This document shows, in pieces, positions 21,727 to 29,189 of a stretch of DNA of 40,396 nt. The notes beneath the pieces are model-generated. The model searched no databases. It worked only from the letters and a program-made list of their open reading frames with translations, and was not told the DNA's origin. Positions within the stretch are counted from its first letter, which is position 1, and the number at the start of each line of letters is the position of its first letter. This stretch comes from Thermoplasmata archaeon (lineage in GTDB: Archaea; Thermoplasmatota; Thermoplasmata; Thermoplasmatales; Thermoplasmataceae): contig JAJYEP010000005.1 in assembly GCA_021785735.1 (NCBI GenBank), positions 1 through 40,396 of the forward strand. Reading direction: 5' to 3'. A program made the translations under genes and the position numbers.

Positions 21727-23270
<1,544 letters not shown>

Positions 23271-23535: not shown

Positions 23536-24651
23536 TCATCTTTTAATATCATTTTCATACATATCTGCAACATAAACCCCGATGGCAGGACTAGCTGTGA
23601 GCCCGGGTGATTCAATGCCGATTAGGTTCACAAAGCCTGGTAAACCATTGTCTTCTTCATGTTTAATGATAAAGTCCCTGAACGAGTTGTCCTGCGATTT
23701 CAGCTTTGGCCTTATGCCGGAAGAATCAGGGTGAATATTATAGCTGACAACAGATGGAAGATACCGCTTGACTGCGTCACGAAATTCTCTCTCACTGGAT
23801 TCTACCTTGTAATCGATGCCATCAACAAAGTATGTGTTGGGACCCAGTCTCACCGAACCAGAAAGATCAGGCGTCATGTGAATGCCAAGTCCATCTCTGG
23901 TGGGAACCGGATAGACGAGCATCTTTACAGGCGGTTTCCCTGATATTCTGAAATAGTCCCCTTTGCATAATCTGATCCGGTAACCCAGTTTCTCTATGTC
24001 CATGCCAGCCATTGCTGCAACTCTGTCCGCATAAAGACCAGAACAGTTTATAACAGTCTCTGCCTGCACGGAAAACCTTTCCCCAACACTTATCCCAATC
24101 AATTCATAACCATCATCATTTTTCTTTATATGTGTAATCTCCGTTTCTATTGCCACCGTCGCCCTGTTTTTTTGAATTTTTGTTAGAAAATGATTCATGA
24201 GATCTTCAGGTTCTATTATTCCAGTGGAGGGCGTGTAAATTGCTCTGTCTACAATGATATCGGGTTCAAGTTTCCTGACTTCATCAGTATCCAGTAATTT
24301 CAGGCCCTCAACACCGTTATCCTCCCCATTCTTTCTGAGACGTTCAAGCTCCCTGATCTCATCGTCTCCGACCGCCACGGTCAATTTTCCAAGTTTTTTA
24401 AACGGGATTCCATAATCCTTGCATAACTCATATATCATTGAATTTCCCTTGACGCATAACTCTGCTTTCAGTGACCCTCTTGGATAATGTATTCCGGAGT
24501 GTATAACTCCACTGTTATGGCTGCTTGTTTCCAGTCCGGTTCTTCTGTTTTTCTCAAAAACGTAAACTGAATCGTTAGAGTTGGAAAGTTCGGCCGCAAC
24601 AGCTAGGCCAATTATTCCAGCCCCTATGATTACAATCTTCGCTTTTTCCAT
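23536..24651 (-). CDS. lhgO: L-2-hydroxyglutarate oxidase/dehydrogenase-like FAD enzyme
   Basis: A 371-residue FAD-dependent oxidoreductase. The dinucleotide motif GAGIIG is at residues 10-15, and SSHNSGVIHSGIHYPRGSLKAEL (shown in parts: SSHNSGVIHSGI, then PRGSLKAEL), a signature of the L2HGDH/LhgO family, spans about 43-66. The C-terminal half has the substrate-side RLGPNTYFVDG and the final GIESPGLTASPAIG. It should oxidise L-2-hydroxyglutarate to 2-oxoglutarate, passing electrons to oxygen or the quinone pool. The ATG at 24651 fits a leaderless mRNA from the TATA box at 24673-24682. It is downstream of, but separate from, the thiolase/FAH operon. Confidence 0.88.
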   Translation of the reverse strand: MEKAKIVIIGAGIIGLAVAAELSNSNDSVYVFEKNRRTGLETSSHNSGVIHSGIHYPRGSLKAELCVKGNSMIYELCKDYGIPFKKLGKLTVAVGDDEIRELERLRKNGEDNGVEGLKLLDTDEVRKLEPDIIVDRAIYTPSTGIIEPEDLMNHFLTKIQKNRATVAIETEITHIKKNDDGYELIGISVGERFSVQAETVINCSGLYADRVAAMAGMDIEKLGYRIRLCKGDYFRISGKPPVKMLVYPVPTRDGLGIHMTPDLSGSVRLGPNTYFVDGIDYKVESSEREFRDAVKRYLPSVVSYNIHPDSSGIRPKLKSQDNSFRDFIIKHEEDNGLPGFVNLIGIESPGLTASPAIGVYVADMYENDIKR

Positions 24652-24883: not shown

Positions 24884-25774
24884 CTAATTCTCTGCAATCA
24901 CGGGATTTCTAAGTGTAGCAAGGTTCCCGAGTGAAACTTCCACCTTATCGTCTTTGTTCAGGAAATTTCGCCTGTTGTAATATGCCACTCCACCAGGGGT
25001 ACCAGTTGATATAACATCGCCAGGTTTTAGTGTGATGCCCCTTGATATATTCTCCATGAGCACGTCAATCTTGAACACCATGTCGTCCACTAAAGAATCC
25101 TGCTCGGTTCTGCCGTTTACCTTAAGTGTCAGTTTCCTGGAATAAATGTCACCGACCTCATCCTTTGTTATGAGGACTGGGCCGAGTGGAAATGATGAGT
25201 CAAGCGTTTTTCCCGGAACCCAGTCTGTAAACCTTTTCCCTTCTCTGTCTGTCTTTATCTGCAAATCCCTGAAACTGATGTCGTTGGCTAACGTGTAGCC
25301 AGCTATGTAATCCTCGTAATTCTTTCTGTTTATGTACTTTGTCCTTTGCCCTATGATTACTCCCACTTCTCCCTCCCAGTCAACCATCTGTGATACTTTC
25401 GGTTTCAGGATCGGTTCCATGTGAGCAATAAGACTGTTCCTCATCCTTGTGAAAAACAACGGTTGAAGAGGGGGTTCTCTGTGCTGTTCCTTGAGGTGCC
25501 CGTAATAGTTTATCGCCACCATGAGTATTTTCTCAGGATTGTTAACAACCGGCAAATACCTAAATGATGATTCCGGCAACGGCGGAGTTGAGTCAACAAT
25601 TTCTCTTTCTTTTCCCTGAATCTTTTCCAGAAGATTGTTCGCAAGAATAAAGTCGATATCCAGGTCACCTTTAAGGTCTACTTTCAACAGACCAGCGTCT
25701 ATGATATGAAATCCATCGCCGGAAGATACGGAAGCACACTTTCTGTTGTTGTAATAAATGTTGGCGATTTTCAA
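24884..25774 (-). CDS. fumarylacetoacetate hydrolase (FAH)-family enzyme
   Basis: A 296-residue FAH-family protein. Residues about 140-165 hold the metal site DWEGEVGVIIGQ, followed by GYTLANDISFRDLQ and later the TGTPGG loop. Members hydrolyse or isomerise acylpyruvates or 2-hydroxy-hepta-dienedioates (C-C bond cleavage or isomerisation), which fits a catabolic operon. The start is TTG 25774, 12 bases after the DUF35 stop and lying in the middle of a perfect 22-base inverted repeat. The substrate is not evident. Confidence 0.9.
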   Translation of the reverse strand: MKIANIYYNNRKCASVSSGDGFHIIDAGLLKVDLKGDLDIDFILANNLLEKIQGKEREIVDSTPPLPESSFRYLPVVNNPEKILMVAINYYGHLKEQHREPPLQPLFFTRMRNSLIAHMEPILKPKVSQMVDWEGEVGVIIGQRTKYINRKNYEDYIAGYTLANDISFRDLQIKTDREGKRFTDWVPGKTLDSSFPLGPVLITKDEVGDIYSRKLTLKVNGRTEQDSLVDDMVFKIDVLMENISRGITLKPGDVISTGTPGGVAYYNRRNFLNKDDKVEVSLGNLATLRNPVIAEN

Positions 25775-25786: not shown

Positions 25787-26296
25787 TTATCTCTTACGTT
25801 TGGCTTTTTCGCCAGTAGGCACAAAATAGACGTCTGTAGGGCTTATCTTGAGATTCCTCCTGAACTTTGCCCTTATTGGCATTCCCACGTAAAGATCTTC
25901 TGCATCCGCGCCTATGAGTCGAGCCATAAAAAGAGAATTCACGCCGTCAAACTCCACGAGCACAAGATGAAATGGTGTTTCTTTGAGAAACTCTTCGCTT
26001 CCAAAATAGCACGTTGTAAAGGAATGAATTCTTCCTTCCTTGGGAAGCTCGTACCATTCTGTCTCCGCACCGCACATCATGCAGTGGGACCGGGGAGTCG
26101 CATAGACATATCCACATTTTTTGCATTTGCTCCCCATAAGTTTCTTCTTTGCAAGAGACGTGAAGAAAAGTGAATCCTGTGCGTAACTGTGGATGTAGTC
26201 TATTTCATAATGGGATTTCACCACAAGTGGATCAAAACTATAGACCTCTGTACCTATCTGGGTTTCCTCCATCTTTGCTTGTGGATTGATCGTCAT
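25787..26296 (-). CDS. DUF35 zinc-ribbon/OB-fold protein, partner of the thiolase-like enzyme
   Basis: A 169-residue protein with an N-terminal rubredoxin-like zinc ribbon (CKKC near residue 58 and CMMC near 72) and a C-terminal OB-fold (VEFDGVNSLFMARLIG, VGMPIRAKF). DUF35 proteins bind the thiolase-fold enzyme encoded next to them and position its acyl-CoA or aldol substrate. The ATGA overlap of four bases with the upstream thiolase-like gene shows tight coupling. The N-terminal 50 residues before the ribbon are charged and may wrap the partner. Confidence 0.9.
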   Translation of the reverse strand: MTINPQAKMEETQIGTEVYSFDPLVVKSHYEIDYIHSYAQDSLFFTSLAKKKLMGSKCKKCGYVYATPRSHCMMCGAETEWYELPKEGRIHSFTTCYFGSEEFLKETPFHLVLVEFDGVNSLFMARLIGADAEDLYVGMPIRAKFRRNLKISPTDVYFVPTGEKAKRKR

Positions 26297-27555
26297 TTAA
26301 CCGCCTCCATTATTGACACCGTAACATATGTTCCTGTACCCGCATGACTGTGGATCAGTCCTGTCTTGGGATTCTTCAGTTGAAGTTTATCGTTTCCAAA
26401 GTGTTTCTTTATGGTTTTCTGGAGCTGCCAGAACATAAAGACTGACTGCATTATCCCAGTCGCGCCCACTGGATGACCACATGCAAGAAGACCTCCCGAA
26501 AAATTAACGGGCAATTTTCCATTCAGATTCGATTTGCCCTCCTCAATGAACTGACCGCCCTCACCGTATTTGCAGAGCCCAAGATCCTCGTAGGTCTGTA
26601 TTTCTGAAGAGGTATAGGCATCATGTAATTCAATTGCATCAAGCTGTTCAAGCGGATCTGTTATTCCTGCACCCTCGTATGCCTCCTTTGCAGCGGATCT
26701 TCCAGCCCTGAATGAATGAACACCCGGATATTGAAGATTCTTGTAATCTGAGGATTTCTCATTGGGAAGCAACGGTACTTTTCCAAACGGTCTGTCCGCA
26801 AGCCTCATTGTGTCTGTACCTGTTCCTATGCTCTTTACAAGCACAGGATGGTCTGTTATCTCGAAAGCTTTCTCCTCAGAAGCGAGGATAGCAACAGCAG
26901 CACCATCTGACATTGTGCACACGTCCAGTCTTGTAAGTGGTGAGGATACCATAGGCGAATTTCTGACATCTTCAACGGTAATATTCATGGGGCTCTGCGA
27001 GTAAGGATTATTCAACGCATTCTTGTGATTCTTAACTGAGACCTTAGCAAGTTGCTCAACCGTAGTTCCAAATTCATGCATATGTCTCCTGGCCATCATA
27101 GCATAATATCCTGTGTAGAAACCCCCCACTGGGTAATCAAAATTGGTATCGCTGGCAAGGGCGATGAATTCATTGCCCTTCCACGTGTTTACATGAGACA
27201 TACTCTCGAAACCGTATACTGCACACGTATCCATCCGGCCGGAAGCGATTTCCTCAAATCCGGTCTGGAATGCTAGTCCACCCGTGGCGCCTCCTCCCTC
27301 GACCCTTTTGCTTGGTTTTGGTGTAAGTCCAAGATAATCCTGTACCATTATTCCGGACATCAGTTGTCTCTGGAAATGATCAGAGAAATACGAGGCCACC
27401 GATCCATCTATGTCGTTCAGTGTCATCCCTGCATCTTTCATCGCGTAGTCAAATGCCTTTTTTACCCGCAGCCTGAAGTCCATATCCGGAGTGGCTTTAG
27501 CAAACTTTGTCACTCCGCCTGAGACCATATACACTTTCCGTCCTTCGTGCTTCAT
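26293..27555 (-). CDS. thiolase-like protein lacking the nucleophilic cysteine
   Basis: A 420-residue protein with the whole thiolase fold: the HDAYT segment near residue 311, the C-terminal CGHPVGATG motif near 358 and HAGTGTYVTV at the end. At the nucleophile position (residue 89) it has VEGGGATGGLAF where thiolases have a Cys, so residue 89 is Gly (codon GGC). It cannot use the ordinary acyl-enzyme mechanism. Together with the DUF35 partner it resembles steroid-side-chain retro-aldolases of the Ltp2/ChsH2 type, which also lack the cysteine. TATA-like sequence about 25 bases upstream. Confidence 0.88.
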   Translation of the reverse strand: MKHEGRKVYMVSGGVTKFAKATPDMDFRLRVKKAFDYAMKDAGMTLNDIDGSVASYFSDHFQRQLMSGIMVQDYLGLTPKPSKRVEGGGATGGLAFQTGFEEIASGRMDTCAVYGFESMSHVNTWKGNEFIALASDTNFDYPVGGFYTGYYAMMARRHMHEFGTTVEQLAKVSVKNHKNALNNPYSQSPMNITVEDVRNSPMVSSPLTRLDVCTMSDGAAVAILASEEKAFEITDHPVLVKSIGTGTDTMRLADRPFGKVPLLPNEKSSDYKNLQYPGVHSFRAGRSAAKEAYEGAGITDPLEQLDAIELHDAYTSSEIQTYEDLGLCKYGEGGQFIEEGKSNLNGKLPVNFSGGLLACGHPVGATGIMQSVFMFWQLQKTIKKHFGNDKLQLKNPKTGLIHSHAGTGTYVTVSIMEAVK

Positions 27556-27854: not shown

Positions 27855-29189
27855 GTGAGGCCCAAAATTGTATTACTAAGTGCAATATTTATTGTCACCG
27901 TTTTGGTAGGCTCATCTTTTGCGTACTTCTATACAGAATACTATTCTCCACCATTCAACAGAAACTGGAAGGTGGATCCTGGCAATATGGATTATTCACA
28001 AGAGATGGGTGAAATATCGATAAACGATACATTTTTCTGGATTGATTTTAATGGCTGGAGTCAGACAGGGACCGTGTTTAGTAATAATCAGTCTTTTTCT
28101 CTGAATGCTCTGGCACTCAATAATGGTACATTTTTATGGAGAGAAAATTTTATGCTCTCACTTTTTTCTGGTTCGCTTCCGCAGATTTACAATTACAAAG
28201 GGAACATAGGACTTTTAGTTCCAGCTTTTGACATCAATCTGCCGGGGTATGTTGTAAACTCCAATTCTTTGGCCCTCTATTTCATTCTTATAAGTGCAAG
28301 AAATGGAAGCATTATTTTCCATAGTAAAATCATTCCTCACAACGCTTATCCCTTTCCCATAATAAGTACATTTACTCTTGACGGAAACAATGTAATCTTC
28401 ACCAGCGTTGGATCCCTCGGCGAATTCCAGAACATCGTATGGACCATGTATGAAATTAACGTGACGGAATGGAACGTACCCAAGAATACCACATGGAACG
28501 AGAGCATTGATTGGAAGGTGGCTGCAAATTTCATGGGCAATCAGTTGGTATACACAGATTTTACGCCACAAGATTCAGTTCTGATGCTGGATGGGTTGTT
28601 AAATCCCGTTAGATCTTACTATAACTCTGAAGTCGTTGTACTTAACACTACCAACGGGAATGTGATTGCGAATGTTATGGTTAATGGTACATTAAGCAAC
28701 CCTCGATTGTATGATAAAAATCTCCTTTTTCTTGACTCGTTCAATGGCAGTTATGCGATGAGATCAATCAGCATTGCTTCTGGAAATTACACAAACAGGT
28801 TCTCTGTGTTTACAAATGAAGTTTATTATGTTGGTAACGACGTTATTTTCAGGAACGCAGAGAATATCTCCGCTTATACAGTTACGGGTAGCTTTGAATG
28901 GGTAGCAGGTATTCCAATGTCACAATATACAGATAATTATATGATTTTGACTCCAGTCCTGCCTGGATACTTATTGATATCTTTGATAGGAGACCATAGC
29001 CTATACACGATATTCAATCTCTCCAGCGGCCTGATGTTATGGCGCGTCCATTATGATTCTTCTCGTTTGTTTGGTACCCAAAATAAGATCTACACCCCGC
29101 TGACTTGTTCAAACGGCCTGTTGATTTATACTTTGACGGCAAACAACCAGGTCTCACTATTATCTGACAACGTGACGAACCTTCTGTGA
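27855..29189 (+). CDS. secreted or membrane-anchored glycoprotein-like protein
   Basis: A 444-residue protein with an N-terminal signal or anchor helix (residues 5-25: VLLSAIFIVTVLVGSSFAYF) and a long extracellular part rich in Asn, Ser, Thr and aromatic residues, with at least ten N-x-S/T sequons. Repeated strand-turn units such as VVLNTTNGNVIANV and NLSSGLMLWRV are the PQQ/WD-like blades of a beta-propeller. Such propellers in acidophilic archaea may bind metals, sugars or other surface proteins; the function is unknown. It starts at GTG 27855; the promoter is unclear. Confidence 0.72.
   Translation: MRPKIVLLSAIFIVTVLVGSSFAYFYTEYYSPPFNRNWKVDPGNMDYSQEMGEISINDTFFWIDFNGWSQTGTVFSNNQSFSLNALALNNGTFLWRENFMLSLFSGSLPQIYNYKGNIGLLVPAFDINLPGYVVNSNSLALYFILISARNGSIIFHSKIIPHNAYPFPIISTFTLDGNNVIFTSVGSLGEFQNIVWTMYEINVTEWNVPKNTTWNESIDWKVAANFMGNQLVYTDFTPQDSVLMLDGLLNPVRSYYNSEVVVLNTTNGNVIANVMVNGTLSNPRLYDKNLLFLDSFNGSYAMRSISIASGNYTNRFSVFTNEVYYVGNDVIFRNAENISAYTVTGSFEWVAGIPMSQYTDNYMILTPVLPGYLLISLIGDHSLYTIFNLSSGLMLWRVHYDSSRLFGTQNKIYTPLTCSNGLLIYTLTANNQVSLLSDNVTNLL

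Follow-up and report, generated by a model that had tools for sequence, protein, structure and literature searches.

A thiolase-fold protein that lacks the nucleophilic cysteine, encoded on the minus strand at positions 26293..27555 of the window (the whole stretch of 40,396 nucleotides that was analysed), probably makes or cuts carbon–carbon bonds by an unrecognised route, because it is strictly conserved together with a DUF35 helper and occurs near genes for branched-acid breakdown. Its database label is 'thiolase', whereas its active site excludes ordinary thiolase chemistry, since the usual acyl-enzyme cannot form without a cysteine at residue 89. As glycine at this residue turned out to be universal in a wide family, the sighting matters more than the preliminary description of this DNA had stated. 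We give an even chance to the reading that the protein is a DUF35-dependent thiolase-fold aldolase or retro-aldolase acting on short branched beta-hydroxyacyl-CoA, alongside an isobutyryl-CoA-type B12-dependent mutase and acyl-CoA dehydrogenases in a pathway for branched short-chain acyl-CoAs.

The contig bearing the gene pair (G000:C15) comes from a 1.17-Mb draft genome that is 77% complete. The thiolase-like protein (420 aa) belongs to the PRK06365 family, matching NCBIfam NF004982 over its full length (residues 1-419) with 788 bits against a cut-off of 695, and contains Pfam thiolase domains (108 bits for Thiolase_C_1). The family is named 'thiolase domain-containing protein' with no function stated, and its model description is silent on Gly89, on the spread into bacteria and on the mutase link described below. 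The AlphaFold2 model (pLDDT 83, pTM 0.90) predicts a thiolase fold. Its best PDB matches in structure comparison were 6et9_C and 7yvy_A (both Z 53), followed by SCP2 thiolases (Z 48-50), and then by Ltp2 and Sal (Z 42-43).

Codon 89 (27289..27291, minus strand) is GGC, and the codons around it, GTC GAG GGA GGA GGC GCC ACG, read V E G G G A T. In the alignment to solved structures, this column holds cysteine in the thiolases 6esq, 7yvy and 6hsj and glycine in the aldolases TcLtp2 and CtSal, which bears out the substitution reported in the preliminary description. Among the matches listed, all 81 sequences aligned (the query plus 80 named-genome homologues) had glycine at residue 89, with no homologue of the family carrying cysteine there, and all had histidine at residue 361; both residues were retained in remoter members too (37-60% identical). 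A local mutation is ruled out by these counts and by the glycine in all members of the remoter Gly clades. The window protein does have other cysteines, at C111, C213, C328 and C359, so that C359 of CGHPVGATG is not the only later one, as had been claimed, and none of these stands in the column of a catalytic thiolase cysteine.

Codon 361 (26473..26475, minus strand) encodes the histidine of GHP, in the column of Tyr344 of TcLtp2, and codon 311 (26623..26625, minus strand) the histidine of HDAY, in the column of the catalytic Tyr294 of TcLtp2 and Tyr302 of CtSal. Residue 311 was histidine in 79/81 aligned sequences and tyrosine in two; residue 313 was alanine in 78/81 and serine in three. At sites 89/311/313/361 the window protein thus reads G/H/A/H, most Cys thiolases of the same type C/H/C/H, the Pyrococcus one (7yvy) C/H/A/H, TcLtp2 G/Y/H/Y, CtSal G/Y/C/Q and the uncharacterised Sphaerobacter protein 4u4e G/Y/S/H. 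Judged from these columns, alanine at 313 is by itself uninformative, because 7yvy has it along with a cysteine at 89. The active-site residues have been maintained despite the lost nucleophile, which counts for an aldolase. So does the tyrosine at 311, seen only in Ferroplasma-type members (YDAY/YDSY): it is the aldolase hallmark, within the same family, and goes together with an acyl-CoA dehydrogenase gene alongside.

The DUF35 partner (169 aa, with a zinc ribbon and an OB fold; 25787..26296, minus strand; PF01796 54.6 bits, PF12172 33.7 bits) overlaps the stop of the thiolase-like gene by 4 nt (ATGA), as had been noticed before. Its four-cysteine zinc motif, C58-x2-C61-x10-C72-x2-C75 (26072..26125, minus strand), has the C-x2-C-x10-C-x2-C spacing given for TcChsH2 (PMC12329534). 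A DUF35 gene adjoined the thiolase-like gene in 30/30 loci (L007-L036), and it was the next downstream gene in 36 of the 45 loci sampled outside Thermoplasmatales.

The preliminary description had proposed a retro-aldolase of the Ltp2/ChsH2 type. The steroid side-chain aldolase Ltp2–ChsH2(DUF35) (6ok1) shares with the window pair the thiolase fold, the glycine at the nucleophile site, the DUF35 partner and its zinc motif, and relatives occur near dehydrogenases or a MaoC hydratase. However, the two proteins are only about 25% identical, and Tyr294 and Tyr344 of Ltp2 correspond to His311 and His361. The bile acid aldolase Sal–Shy(DUF35) (9myr) likewise has the fold, the glycine and a DUF35 partner, but Tyr302 and Cys304 of CtSal correspond to His311 and Ala313, and the zinc motif is C3H1 in Shy and C4 in the window DUF35 protein. 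The catalytic tyrosine of YDxF/Y is therefore absent, as is the second acid (Tyr344/Cys304, here His361/Ala313), and we rejected filing the protein as Ltp2 or Sal because both catalytic residues differ. Thus, the proposal stood as far as the fold, the Cys-to-Gly exchange, the DUF35 zinc motif and the dehydrogenase and hydratase genes near relatives are concerned, and failed at the catalytic residues: when set against Ltp2 and the thiolases of archaeal HMG-CoA clusters, the protein has glycine as in TcLtp2 and CtSal, but histidines at 311 and 361 as in Cys thiolases. The retro-aldolase idea as such is plausible and has been strengthened.

Two archaeal systems are close in other respects. The acetoacetyl-CoA thiolase/DUF35/HMG-CoA synthase complex (6esq, 6et9) provides the closest solved fold and also has a DUF35 partner, but its thiolase carries cysteine at sites 89 and 313, where the window protein has glycine and alanine. 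ST0096 of Sulfolobus tokodaii (4yzo) has a thiolase fold that lacks the nucleophilic cysteine and keeps both histidines, as does the window protein, but serine replaces the cysteine and the protein lies on a separate tree branch. Maximum-likelihood analysis of 60 sequences placed the 41 Gly proteins among them (the PRK06365 family and paralogue groups) in one group, with support 100/98. This group stood beside that of Ltp2, Sal and 4u4e with support of 90/87, which is not firm. As topologies joining the Gly clade to archaeal or haloarchaeal Cys thiolases were not rejected (p-AU 0.11 and 0.30, respectively), a single loss of the cysteine shared with the Ltp2/Sal aldolases is possible only.

If no acyl-enzyme can form, aldol or retro-aldol cleavage is the likeliest chemistry for this fold. 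For the glycine of Ltp2 and Sal, it has been proposed that its backbone NH binds the beta-hydroxyl (PMC12329534). If the window protein is an aldolase, the backbone NH of Gly89 would bind the beta-oxygen in the same manner, His311, at the position of the catalytic tyrosine of Ltp2 and Sal, would act as the base that deprotonates the beta-hydroxyl, and His361, at the position of Tyr344 of Ltp2, as the acid that protonates the departing acyl-CoA enolate, with DUF35 shaping the acyl pocket. The products would be an aldehyde or a ketone and a shorter acyl-CoA, the reverse condensation being equally possible. Such an enzyme would represent a third active-site solution (His/His), beside Tyr/Tyr of Ltp2 and Tyr/Cys of Sal, and would show an exchange of tyrosine and histidine within one family. 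Several points speak against an aldolase. The aldolase tyrosine is replaced by histidine at 311 in the window protein and in most members, and we know of no characterised aldolase of thiolase fold with histidine at this site. The kinship with Ltp2 and Sal is not firm, and the closest solved structures, 6et9 and 7yvy, are Cys thiolases. Finally, no hydratase gene adjoins the window pair, and the mutase link by itself requires no aldolase.

At 311 and 361 the protein has the histidines of a thiolase, and the solved structures nearest in fold are thiolases, so that a Claisen or retro-Claisen reaction with no acyl-enzyme is conceivable, CoA or water attacking a 3-ketoacyl-CoA directly with the help of the histidine pair. 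HDA in place of HDC occurs also in Cys-bearing thiolases of this type (7yvy; HDAF in 7pxp_C), implying a site that is otherwise thiolase-like. Nevertheless, we regard this direct reaction as unlikely: to our knowledge no Cys-less thiolase of that kind exists, Ferroplasma-type members have tyrosine at 311, and in several operons another thiolase-family gene already lies beside the Gly89 gene (L169, L170 and L183, the last encoding an acetyl-CoA acetyltransferase by NCBIfam).

The aldolase reading draws further on the gene neighbourhood of the family, which is widely spread. When 84,980 species genomes were scanned, at least 507 encoding stretches were confirmed. Among the matches listed, proteins of 68-85% identity come from named records such as Thermoplasma sp., Cuniculiplasma sp. 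and Ferroplasma acidarmanus Fer1, and the window's family, f1, accordingly behaves as the Thermoplasma/Cuniculiplasma/Ferroplasma group. Proteins 67-76% identical occur beyond Thermoplasmatota, in Desulfosporosinus, a Peptococcaceae bacterium, Nitrospirota, Geobacteraceae, anammox Planctomycetes, Methylomirabilota, Aminicenantes, Chloroflexi and others. Since a large share of these matches are metagenome bins, individual taxon labels can be wrong; genome records without a MAG mark exist, however, for Desulfosporosinus lacus DSM 15449, Desulfosporosinus sp. I2, Peptococcaceae CEB3 and F. acidarmanus. By alignment, the GGATGG loop and both histidines are kept in two domains of life.

In the 45 loci outside Thermoplasmatales, a B12-binding subunit gene was directly upstream of the thiolase-like gene in 16 and anywhere in the locus in 21, and genes for an acyl-CoA mutase large subunit (19/45), acyl-CoA dehydrogenase (22/45), enoyl-CoA hydratase (10/45), MeaB (7/45) and 3-hydroxyacyl-CoA dehydrogenase (6/45) were found as well. 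The gene run of bacterial members is mutase large subunit, B12 subunit, thiolase-like protein and DUF35. In anammox loci the order is enoyl-CoA hydratase, Cys-type thiolase, mutase, B12 subunit, Gly89 protein, DUF35 and 3-hydroxyacyl-CoA dehydrogenase, and in Firmicutes acyl-CoA ligase, Gly89 protein, DUF35 and acyl-CoA dehydrogenase. Ferroplasma-type loci, like several others from archaea, have an acyl-CoA dehydrogenase gene immediately upstream that overlaps or almost does so. Conserved partners are thus the isobutyryl-CoA-type B12 mutase, acyl-CoA dehydrogenases and acyl-CoA ligases, with a MaoC hydratase for a paralogue. That paralogous Gly clade (about 38% identical; L057, L058, L059, L060, L061, L062) is present also in a species of the window's genus, in the order acyl-CoA ligase, MaoC hydratase, Gly protein, DUF35 and acyl-CoA ligase, which would fit a hydratase followed by a retro-aldolase. 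Aldolase activity may be easier to prove with this second Gly-type thiolase/DUF35 pair. A third Gly-type group (KTGGATGG, 41% identical), also with DUF35, occurs in families f15 and f24 (L047, L048, L076).

A mutase from one of the bacterial operons had its best PDB score with 2-hydroxyisobutyryl-CoA mutase. At the positions of I90, D117 and Q208 of that enzyme, the operon mutases have F/A/Q in every sequence complete there. Phenylalanine and glutamine at the first and third of these specificity sites mark isobutyryl-CoA mutase, while methylmalonyl-CoA mutase has Y/A/R. The operon-linked mutase is accordingly predicted to be of the isobutyryl-CoA type; methylmalonyl-CoA mutase was rejected by these residues, and 2-hydroxyisobutyryl-CoA mutase, though the nearest solved structure, was rejected for the lack of its Ile90 and Asp117. 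A single mutase turned up in the window's genome (G000:C22); it is unlinked to the pair, has F/A/Q and is 53-59% identical to the operon mutases, and downstream of it lie 169-aa and 317-aa ORFs that, by size only, would suit the B12 subunit and MeaB. F/A/Q also occurs in every mutase sampled from families f1 (the window's), f3 and f4 of the same order, which makes the label 'methylmalonyl-CoA mutase' on them doubtful. All five sampled f2 mutases have Y/A/R, and family f2 is without PRK06365-level matches; Y/A/R is found in family f34 as well (mutase loci L219-L238, L198). An f3 genome (G252, 88% complete) has an F/A/Q mutase and no PRK06365-level match. The co-occurrence of F/A/Q mutases with PRK06365 proteins is suggestive but, as the lineages share ancestry, does not amount to a formal test. 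An isobutyryl-CoA mutase subunit is annotated in the proteome of Cuniculiplasma (PMC7285479).

The mutase type bears on another explanation, in which the protein is a CoA-thioester decarboxylase that stabilises the enolate after CO2 loss from a malonyl-CoA-type substrate, as in KS-Q enzymes. Both thiolase histidines are kept without the cysteine, slow decarboxylation of malonyl-CoA is reported for the Cys-less relative TbSLP (PMC12329534), and a malonyl-type product could come from the neighbouring B12 mutase. We nonetheless think a decarboxylase distinctly unlikely, as the linked mutase has F/A/Q, the isobutyryl-CoA type with no free carboxylate, rather than Y/A/R, the glutamine of KS-Q decarboxylases was not present at residue 89 in any of the 81 aligned sequences, and CtSal was reported to be without malonyl-CoA decarboxylation (PMC12329534).

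For an aldolase, the mutase, dehydrogenase and ligase partners point to short branched acyl-CoAs. A candidate substrate would be 3-hydroxyisovaleryl-CoA, cleaved to acetone and acetyl-CoA. This case is tempting, if unproven, because no HMG-CoA lyase above the cut-off was found in 41 genomes of the window's family; such a lack fits a leucine route without that enzyme and is weak support for any one substrate. Our literature search found nothing on Thermoplasma thiolase with DUF35, on acyl-CoA mutase with thiolase and DUF35, or on a 3-hydroxyisovaleryl-CoA/acetone aldolase. Pathway maps may lack a widely shared step of anaerobic branched-acid metabolism, given that the protein is highly conserved, about 70% identical between archaea and bacteria, and in bacteria associated with a B12 mutase. 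More tentatively, and with less than even confidence, we suggest a widespread class of His/His thiolase-fold aldolases in acidophilic archaea and many anaerobic bacteria, which, together with the isobutyryl-CoA-type B12 mutase and acyl-CoA dehydrogenases, would form a branched short-chain acyl-CoA pathway (e.g., for valine or leucine) that uses aldol chemistry instead of thiolysis or HMG-CoA lyase.

Next to the window pair there was no hydratase gene and no HMG-CoA synthase gene, and no steroid genes were seen nearby. HMG-CoA synthase as a partner of the pair is ruled out, as that cluster lies elsewhere in the genome (L067). The thiolase of the cluster (L067:6315-8928; G000:C5, ~44.3-46.9 kb), with DUF35 alongside, has Ser/Thr for the nucleophilic cysteine and GNP (in one case GYP) for GHP, both in the window's genome and in every aligned relative from the family (67-78% identical), and it looks, from these residues, like a dead subunit that has been kept. 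In a different genome (G126, family f10), a thiolase beside an HMG-CoA synthase-type gene (L064:1994-3205) has glycine (ESGGASGG), HDNY and GQP, apparently a separate loss of catalytic residues by its tree position.

The retention of a dead-looking subunit in the same family lends some support to the idea that the Gly89 protein, too, is a catalytically dead scaffold merely holding DUF35 and partner enzymes together. This is very unlikely in our view: the protein of the HMG-CoA synthase cluster lost the GHP histidine, whereas the Gly89 protein keeps both histidines and the GGATGG loop across two domains of life, and it is the best conserved among the proteins compared in its region (90% identity between two species of the window's genus, against 87% for DUF35 and 52-82% for the neighbours).

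An FAH-family protein (296 aa; 24884..25774, minus strand; PF01557 188 bits) is encoded from a TTG start 12 nt downstream of the DUF35 gene and is probably co-transcribed with the pair. The preliminary description had taken the three genes for an operon of an aldolase and a following C–C hydrolase. This could not be upheld, as the FAH gene is beside the pair only in genus g1 (3/3 genomes), with a 39% identical relative nearby in g7, and the pair persists almost everywhere in its absence. Confined to two genera, FAH is ruled out as a core partner: it is a genus-level accessory outside the conserved core, and its step a local addition. That the thiolase-like aldolase, DUF35 and FAH hydrolase form one unit acting in sequence is thus highly improbable despite their adjacency in all three g1 genomes, given that no FAH of such kind was near the pair outside the two genera in the loci examined, and that FAH has diverged most among the three (52% identity between the two species of the window's genus).

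Further downstream, the same strand encodes an FAD-dependent DAO-family oxidoreductase resembling L-2-hydroxyglutarate oxidase (23536..24651, minus strand; PF01266 222 bits; NF008726 243 bits, under the cut-off of 299), and possibly shares a transcript with the pair. Upstream of the thiolase-like gene, on the opposite strand, there is a 444-aa ORF that begins with GTG and matches no Pfam family (27855-29189, plus strand). In another plus-strand ORF of the window (22236-23270), an aTrm56 tRNA methyltransferase domain is fused with an HD domain.
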